Assembly (NCBI GenBank): GCA_902523535.1
Contig: CABYZQ010000005.1
Location: 1 to 64,000, forward strand
From: an uncultured Pelagibacteraceae bacterium
GTDB lineage: Bacteria; Pseudomonadota; Alphaproteobacteria; Pelagibacterales; AG-422-B15
Direction of reading: 5' to 3'
Length of the DNA: 64,000 nt
Below the pieces are notes generated by a model that ran no database searches, was not told where the DNA came from, and saw only the letters and a list, made by a program, of their open reading frames with translations. The position numbers were made by a program, and so were the translations under genes. Position 1 is the first letter of the stretch. Every line of letters starts with the position of its first letter. This document shows, one piece after another, positions 41,073 to 41,925 of this stretch.

Positions 41073-41089
41073 TTTTCCACTTATCCACA
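41073..41089. promoter_or_regulatory. DnaA-box pair: TTTTCCACT overlapping by 1 bp a consensus TTATCCACA
   Basis: Exact TTATCCACA at 41081-41089, flanked by about 55 bp of nearly pure A/T (41097-41155). Confidence 0.4.
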
Positions 41090-41164
41090 AGTTAAGAAAT
41101 ACAAATAATTTTTTTTATTTAATAATTTTTTTTTAATAAATTATTATTTATTTATCGGTACAAC

Positions 41165-41263
41165 AAAGATCGAAAGCCTTTCGGGGAGTTTGTTCAGAGT
41201 TAGACCGGAATTTCGGGGCGATATAGAGACCTTTCGGGGTATTCGTAGCGCCCCGTTTTTTTT
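41165..41263 (+). ncRNA. Candidate structured RNA or leader with three (C/A)UUUCGGGG repeats and intrinsic terminator
   Basis: Repeats at 41178-41186, 41210-41218, 41231-41239; stem CGGGGCG (41214-41220)/CGCCCCG (41249-41255) followed by T8. Confidence 0.4.
41214..41263 (+). terminator. Intrinsic terminator upstream of lysE-like gene
   Basis: Perfect 7-bp GC stem CGGGGCG/CGCCCCG followed by TTTTTTTT (41256-41263). Confidence 0.65.
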
Positions 41264-41298
41264 GTGCTTTGTGTCTAAAAATCGGATACTAATTTCAT

Positions 41299-41925
41299 AT
41301 GTTTTTAGACTTTACCCTCCTTTATTTTTTTATTCCTTTGTTTTTTGTTATTTCTATAACTCCAGGTCTTTGCATGACTCTTGCTTTAACTATGGGTATT
41401 ACCATTGGCCTTAAAAATACGATGAAGATGATGGTTGGGGAACTCATAGGCGTACTAATAGTTGCTGGAAGTGCAGTTATTGGTGGTGGGGCAATTATTT
41501 CATCATATCCAATGACATTTCTCTTTTTTAAATATGGAGGAGGAGTTTATTTGATGTTTGTAGGCTATCAAATGTTCAATTCAAGAGGATCATTAGCATT
41601 AAACTTAGACGGAACACATTCTTTTGAGATTAATTTTTTAAAGCTAGCAAGCCAGGGATTTATTACCGCAGTTGCAAACCCTAAGGGATGGGCTTTTTTT
41701 ATTGCTATGGTACCCGCATTTATCAATTATGACTTAGCGCTCATGCCTCAGATGTCAGCATTGGTCGTCATCATTTTAATAATAGAATTCATATCTTTGA
41801 TGATTTACGCAACTGGCGGACAGATGCTTGGAATTATCTTGAAGAAACAAAAAAATATTCAATCTATAAATCGTTTAGCTGGTTTACTAATGGTAGGCGT
41901 TGGAATTTGGTTAGCTCTTAGTTAG
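41299..41925 (+). CDS. LysE family amino-acid exporter
   Basis: FFVISITPGLCMTLALTMGITIGLKNTMKMMVGELIG; NPKGWAFFIAMVPAFI. Confidence 0.9.
   Translation: MFLDFTLLYFFIPLFFVISITPGLCMTLALTMGITIGLKNTMKMMVGELIGVLIVAGSAVIGGGAIISSYPMTFLFFKYGGGVYLMFVGYQMFNSRGSLALNLDGTHSFEINFLKLASQGFITAVANPKGWAFFIAMVPAFINYDLALMPQMSALVVIILIIEFISLMIYATGGQMLGIILKKQKNIQSINRLAGLLMVGVGIWLALS

Follow-up and report, generated by a model that had tools for sequence, protein, structure and literature searches.

A conserved RNA of about 110 nt, probably a stand-alone sRNA gene, behind a tandem DnaA-box-type motif in SAR11-type bacteria

A conserved element of about 110 nt, located at positions 41154-41263 (+ strand) of the window, i.e. 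of the whole 64-kb stretch of DNA which was analysed, is very probably a stand-alone gene for a trans-acting sRNA, provided with its own promoter and terminator, probably controlled by a protein binding an upstream sequence motif, and independent of Hfq. Comparison of related genomes supports its conservation, structure, terminator, independence from the neighboring lysE gene and linkage to the motif, and no Hfq was detected in its relatives. Set against known RNAs, it represents a new family, absent from Rfam, of a kind already known, that of the stand-alone sRNAs.

The preliminary description had placed the element at 41165-41298 and characterized it by three UUUCGGGG repeats, two UUCG-capped stems and a terminator. 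The repeats were found again where they had been located: the 64-kb window contains TTTCGGGG at 41179, 41211 and 41232, always on the + strand and within 61 nt, and has no further copy on either strand. Both capped stems are present, CCU-UUCG-GGG in the first repeat and ACCU-UUCG-GGGU in the third, as is the perfect 7-bp terminator, formed by CGGGGCG (41214-41220) and CGCCCCG (41249-41255) and followed by U8 (41256-41263), whose end lies 35 nt before the ATG of lysE (41299). While the element itself proved to be real, its borders had to be moved: it starts at 41154, about 11 nt further upstream, and ends with the U-tract at 41263, the 35 nt between the U-tract and lysE being outside the conserved unit. 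The G+C content of the stretch is 48%, against 34% for the window. Its folding energy is unremarkable when compared to that of shuffled sequences (z = -1.0), and for this reason the structure was assessed through comparison; by that measure it is conservation and covariation, not folding energy, that set the stretch above chance.

By BLAST, 34 genomes of the genus, that of the window included, gave a single match to the stretch each. By using a covariance model, the RNA was detected in 40 of the 43 genomes of the genus, the other three being 55-64% complete, and in two of the three genomes of the sister genus, with one copy per genome. The model did not find it in the other two genera of the same family, nor did it match in the genomes searched of the Pelagibacter-type Pelagibacteraceae (group f2); a search with relaxed filters on g7, g9 and f2 genomes produced only matches with E of at least 0.8. 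No copies were found in phage records and in IMG/VR. The RNA is therefore most likely specific to one family of SAR11-type bacteria, as judged from these searches. A class-wide search on 385 Alphaproteobacteria returned a single weak match (28.4 bits, E = 0.003 for one genome), which was judged to be due to chance, and model matches on the minus strand were interpreted as the palindromic terminator read from the opposite side. The stretch matched no Rfam family, either at the gathering threshold or with a relaxed E-value, in keeping with the initial impression that it belongs to no recognizable riboswitch class. In the papers searched on sRNA or Hfq in SAR11, nothing was found on this RNA family.

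Conservation begins sharply at ATCGG (41154) and stops at the U-tract. When the window is compared to its more distant relatives, identity is 65-83% within the element, 30-51% in the stretch from the terminator to the ATG and 28-60% in the preceding spacer; in example comparisons, the element reaches 76-77%, while the stretch from terminator to ATG has 31-35% and the preceding spacer 28-60%. The flanks are less conserved than the element in all cases, except in the comparison with a close sister. From the abrupt onset of conservation, transcription would be expected to start at about 41154.

Individual folds of most sequences show two domains, a 5' stem-loop and a long terminator hairpin, although one subclade has a local hairpin in competition with the closing stem of the 5' domain. 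The latter domain (41156-41207) includes a closing stem CGGU/ACCG (41156-41159 with 41204-41207), an inner stem AAC/GUU (41162-41164 with 41199-41201) and, as a cap, the near-invariant hairpin CGAA-AG-CCU-UUCG-GGG-AG-UUUG (41171-41192), in which the sequence GAAAGCCYUUCGGGGAGUUUG is retained even at unpaired positions. The 3' domain (41214-41263) is an intrinsic terminator with a long bulged hairpin, made of the CGGGGCG/CGCCCCG stem, the apical ACCU-UUCG-GGGU and U8; in all members a U-rich tract follows the 7-bp stem, which shows covariation.

Covariation was evaluated on an alignment (A5) of 25 distinct sequences, guided by the model and used because the MAFFT alignment (A4) misplaces the terminator arm of the sister genus. 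In A5, 94-98% of the cells pair, and the cells changed on both sides are more numerous than in all 500 shuffles and in all slid versions; these counts lean towards the proposed structure, since A5 was fitted to part of it. The most telling changes can be read straight from the sequences. Among relatives, terminator pair 67-98 occurs as G-C, G-U, U-A and C-G, and pairs 69-96 and 77-88 likewise vary on both sides. In the 5' domain, U6-A51 of the window is replaced by A6-U51 in its closest sisters, and G+C-rich pairs take the place of the inner stem AAC/GUU in the sister genus. At locus L035 the tetraloop changes from C(UUCG)G to C(CUUG)G, while the stem is intact. The stems are thus backed by compensatory changes in the homologous intergenic regions.

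The same data bear on the possibility, first raised from the competing pairings of the repeats, that the RNA is an attenuator or riboswitch of lysE, in which the CCCCG arm would have an alternative partner, in competition with the terminator, and read-through would depend on a signal such as an amino acid. The mutually exclusive folds proposed in the preliminary description, where this arm pairs with the first or third repeat, are 9-16 kcal/mol worse and show no covariation. Pairing with the first repeat is almost invariant across the alignment and is therefore uninformative; pairing with the third has its outer pair broken in about one third of the sequences and is lost in the sister genus. 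Conservation of the terminator speaks for this reading, but no riboswitch match was obtained.

Genomic context weighs further on this question. The downstream gene (41299-41925, + strand), which is not counted in the RNA gene, encodes a LysE-type exporter (Pfam LysE, E = 1e-20), and is the downstream neighbor of the RNA in most genomes, but not in all. In the main clade, i.e. the genus of the window, lysE begins about 25-36 nt past the terminator in nearly every genome, even where the upstream MFS gene is displaced, and this close arrangement favors a cis-acting role, as does the presence of another conserved hairpin before a LysE-family gene in Pelagibacteraceae. However, the RNA is kept without lysE downstream in three genomes, which belong to two genera. 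In G020 it follows the MFS gene and the next gene is convergent; lysE is found at a distance of 5.4 kb and is not preceded by the RNA. The two sister-genus genomes have an aldehyde dehydrogenase gene (G062) or a cytochrome c-like gene (G080) ahead of the RNA, and in both a convergent gene comes next. A cis-acting element of lysE would not be expected to survive such rearrangements, whereas a stand-alone gene does. Candidate TACTAT-like -10 sites, seen by eye between the terminator and the lysE ATG, also speak against control of lysE by the RNA. Of the three readings originally offered, the free-standing sRNA is the one favored by the comparative evidence, and an attenuator or riboswitch is now very improbable.

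Less improbable, though still unlikely, is a dual role, in which the main clade would also use the sRNA as lysE leader, the level of lysE being set by a constant proportion of read-through. The close and stable spacing in that clade agrees with it, and separate promoters of lysE are no more than candidates; on the other side, the RNA persists elsewhere without lysE, and U8 behind a 7-bp G+C stem is the design of a strong terminator. With lysE so near to the terminator, some effect of read-through on its expression may nevertheless occur in the main clade, next to the stand-alone function.

Two observations concern the lysE surroundings. In the window, lysE has no evident Shine-Dalgarno sequence (41264-41298), and several relatives have a TACTAT- or TACAAAT-like site just before its ATG; taken together, these features suggest that lysE may have its own promoter and a leaderless mRNA. 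In part of the genus (loci L016-L034), the MFS gene ends further from the RNA, at about -430 or -1250, and the intervening stretch apparently holds an extra short gene, while motif, RNA and lysE remain together.

The motif is a tandem, TTTTCCAC followed by TTATCCACA, located at 41073-41089 (+ strand), its two copies being 8 bp apart; the second matches the DnaA-box consensus perfectly. In all the 36 elements inspected, either TTATCCACA or ATATCCACA, a perfect or one-mismatch box, is found at the same distance upstream of the RNA, the distance to the RNA start being 73-75 bp in every copy. The other copy, 8 bp earlier, reads TTATCCAC, TTTTCCAC or a weaker form. In an alignment anchored on the box, the motif bases show little or no variation, in contrast to the neighboring ones. 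The spacing is constant even though the upstream gene varies, encoding an MFS transporter, an aldehyde dehydrogenase or a cytochrome c-like protein.

A strict tandem pattern has matches in 22 genomes, one in each and always at the promoter of the RNA; it was absent from the 23 f2 genomes searched, and its reversed control was never found. With a looser pattern, allowing one mismatch, one extra site away from the RNA was detected in each of G080 and G066. These two sites, G080:C12:8553-8569 (L260) and G066:C19:6386-6402 (L256), share the variant tandem motif TTTTCCACATATCAACA, both genomes being of the sister genus. By these pattern searches, the tandem motif is almost unique to the RNA promoter in each genome. 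Between motif and RNA, a candidate sigma-70 promoter, TTAATA-17-TATTAT, matches the consensus at 9 of 12 positions (41119-41147, + strand); its hexamers are ordinary consensus matches, no commoner than in shuffled sequences. A consensus box at a fixed position near the candidate promoter is what would be expected of a DnaA-regulated promoter, although a single such box is not rare; since the box sequence is that of DnaA, this protein would be the simplest candidate regulator.

The combination of a DnaA-box consensus, an A+T-rich spacer and an adjacent ncRNA also recalls a replication origin, and the nearest precedent for an alphaproteobacterial ncRNA gene beside DnaA boxes is indeed CcnA at the Caulobacter origin (PMC8959179). 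CcnA, however, lies inside oriC, is putatively activated by CtrA and acts through a CCCC loop, while the conserved loop of the present RNA is UUCG and skew does not place its locus at the origin. Along 400 kb of G059, where the skew is noisy, G+C skew is mostly positive over the 150 kb or so left of the element, and the cumulative minimum falls about 220 kb from it. Moreover, only two overlapping boxes, and no cluster, are found in 300 bp, and the unit has a different gene neighborhood in the sister genus. An origin was rejected on the basis of G+C skew and box density, and scarcely deserves consideration as an explanation of the locus.

A profile search for Hfq (PF17209) gave no match in 59 relatives of the order, some with incomplete genomes, while the controls were positive; the RNA would therefore not fall within the Hfq-dependent sRNAs, whose hosts encode Hfq. 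No Rfam 6S RNA was matched, with strict filters and with positive controls, in the 59 genomes of the order, which leaves the slot open for a highly diverged 6S RNA of the lineage. The present RNA is a poor candidate: it consists of about 110 nt in two hairpins, rather than of a rod of about 185 nt with a central bubble, and the covariance model of Rfam 6S (RF00013) found no similarity in it, so that such an identity appears extremely unlikely. Potential targets were sought by scanning start regions for 9-mer complementarity in 400 kb of one relative, and the 2 matches observed are no excess over shuffled sequences, with a mean of 3.2.

According to the favored reading, that of a stand-alone sRNA gene, transcription would start from the candidate promoter of the RNA, probably under the control of a protein, with DnaA as the simplest candidate, bound to the tandem TTATCCAC motif at -82/-74, and would end at the intrinsic terminator. 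The mature RNA would consist of the 5' stem-loop, with its near-invariant UUCG-type cap, and of the long terminator hairpin, with a short U-rich linker between the two. Acting presumably in trans and without Hfq, it could base-pair through the linker and internal loops or bind a protein through the near-invariant hairpin, which is equally compatible with a protein-binding site and with a pairing seed. In the ocean, SAR11-type bacteria count among the most abundant cells, and their protein regulators are few. A strongly conserved sRNA family with a motif nearly confined to its promoter, in a lineage where no Hfq was detected, would make RNA regulation in streamlined genomes accessible to testing in a concrete case, and would possibly link DnaA to gene expression. 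It is conceivable, but still speculative, that transcription of this Hfq-independent sRNA is coupled to DnaA through the dedicated, near-unique tandem box, making it a growth- or replication-linked regulator in a regulator-poor lineage of streamlined ocean bacteria.

Among known RNAs, the best sub-threshold Rfam match was the mmgR/suhB sRNA (RF00519), likewise an alphaproteobacterial sRNA with a terminator; membership was rejected, the score being 17.1 bits where the gathering cut-off is 41, and the match being limited to the terminator half and the U-tract. Published candidate RNAs of the order include the rhtB and SAR11_0636 elements (Meyer et al. 2009, PMC2704228). The SAR11_0636 element resembles the present RNA in having been proposed as a free-standing SAR11 ncRNA, because its flanking genes vary; it differs in forming, according to that paper, a three-stem junction, and the present models have no match in the f2 genomes searched. 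The rhtB element of 'Candidatus Pelagibacter ubique' is a conserved hairpin region adjoining a LysE/RhtB gene in the same order, with a U-tract in about half of the cases (PMC2704228), but is a single bulged hairpin, as opposed to the two-domain RNA described here.

Upstream of the LysE genes of f2 genomes the sequence GATAGTCC...GGACTATC is found, on which the model of the present RNA (R1) scores 11.9 bits at best (E = 0.38, not significant). At loci L184-L193 and L196 of this group, a conserved hairpin, GATAGTCC...TAGCCATCTTTAGCTCCCGG...GGACTATC, immediately precedes a LysE-family gene. It is consistent with the rhtB element as published, with which it is equated by description only. Homology of the present RNA to the Pelagibacter rhtB element, known here by its description, was rejected, as the sequence of the f2 hairpin is unrelated and matches R1 without significance. 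That two unrelated RNAs should stand ahead of LysE-type genes within one order is curious.
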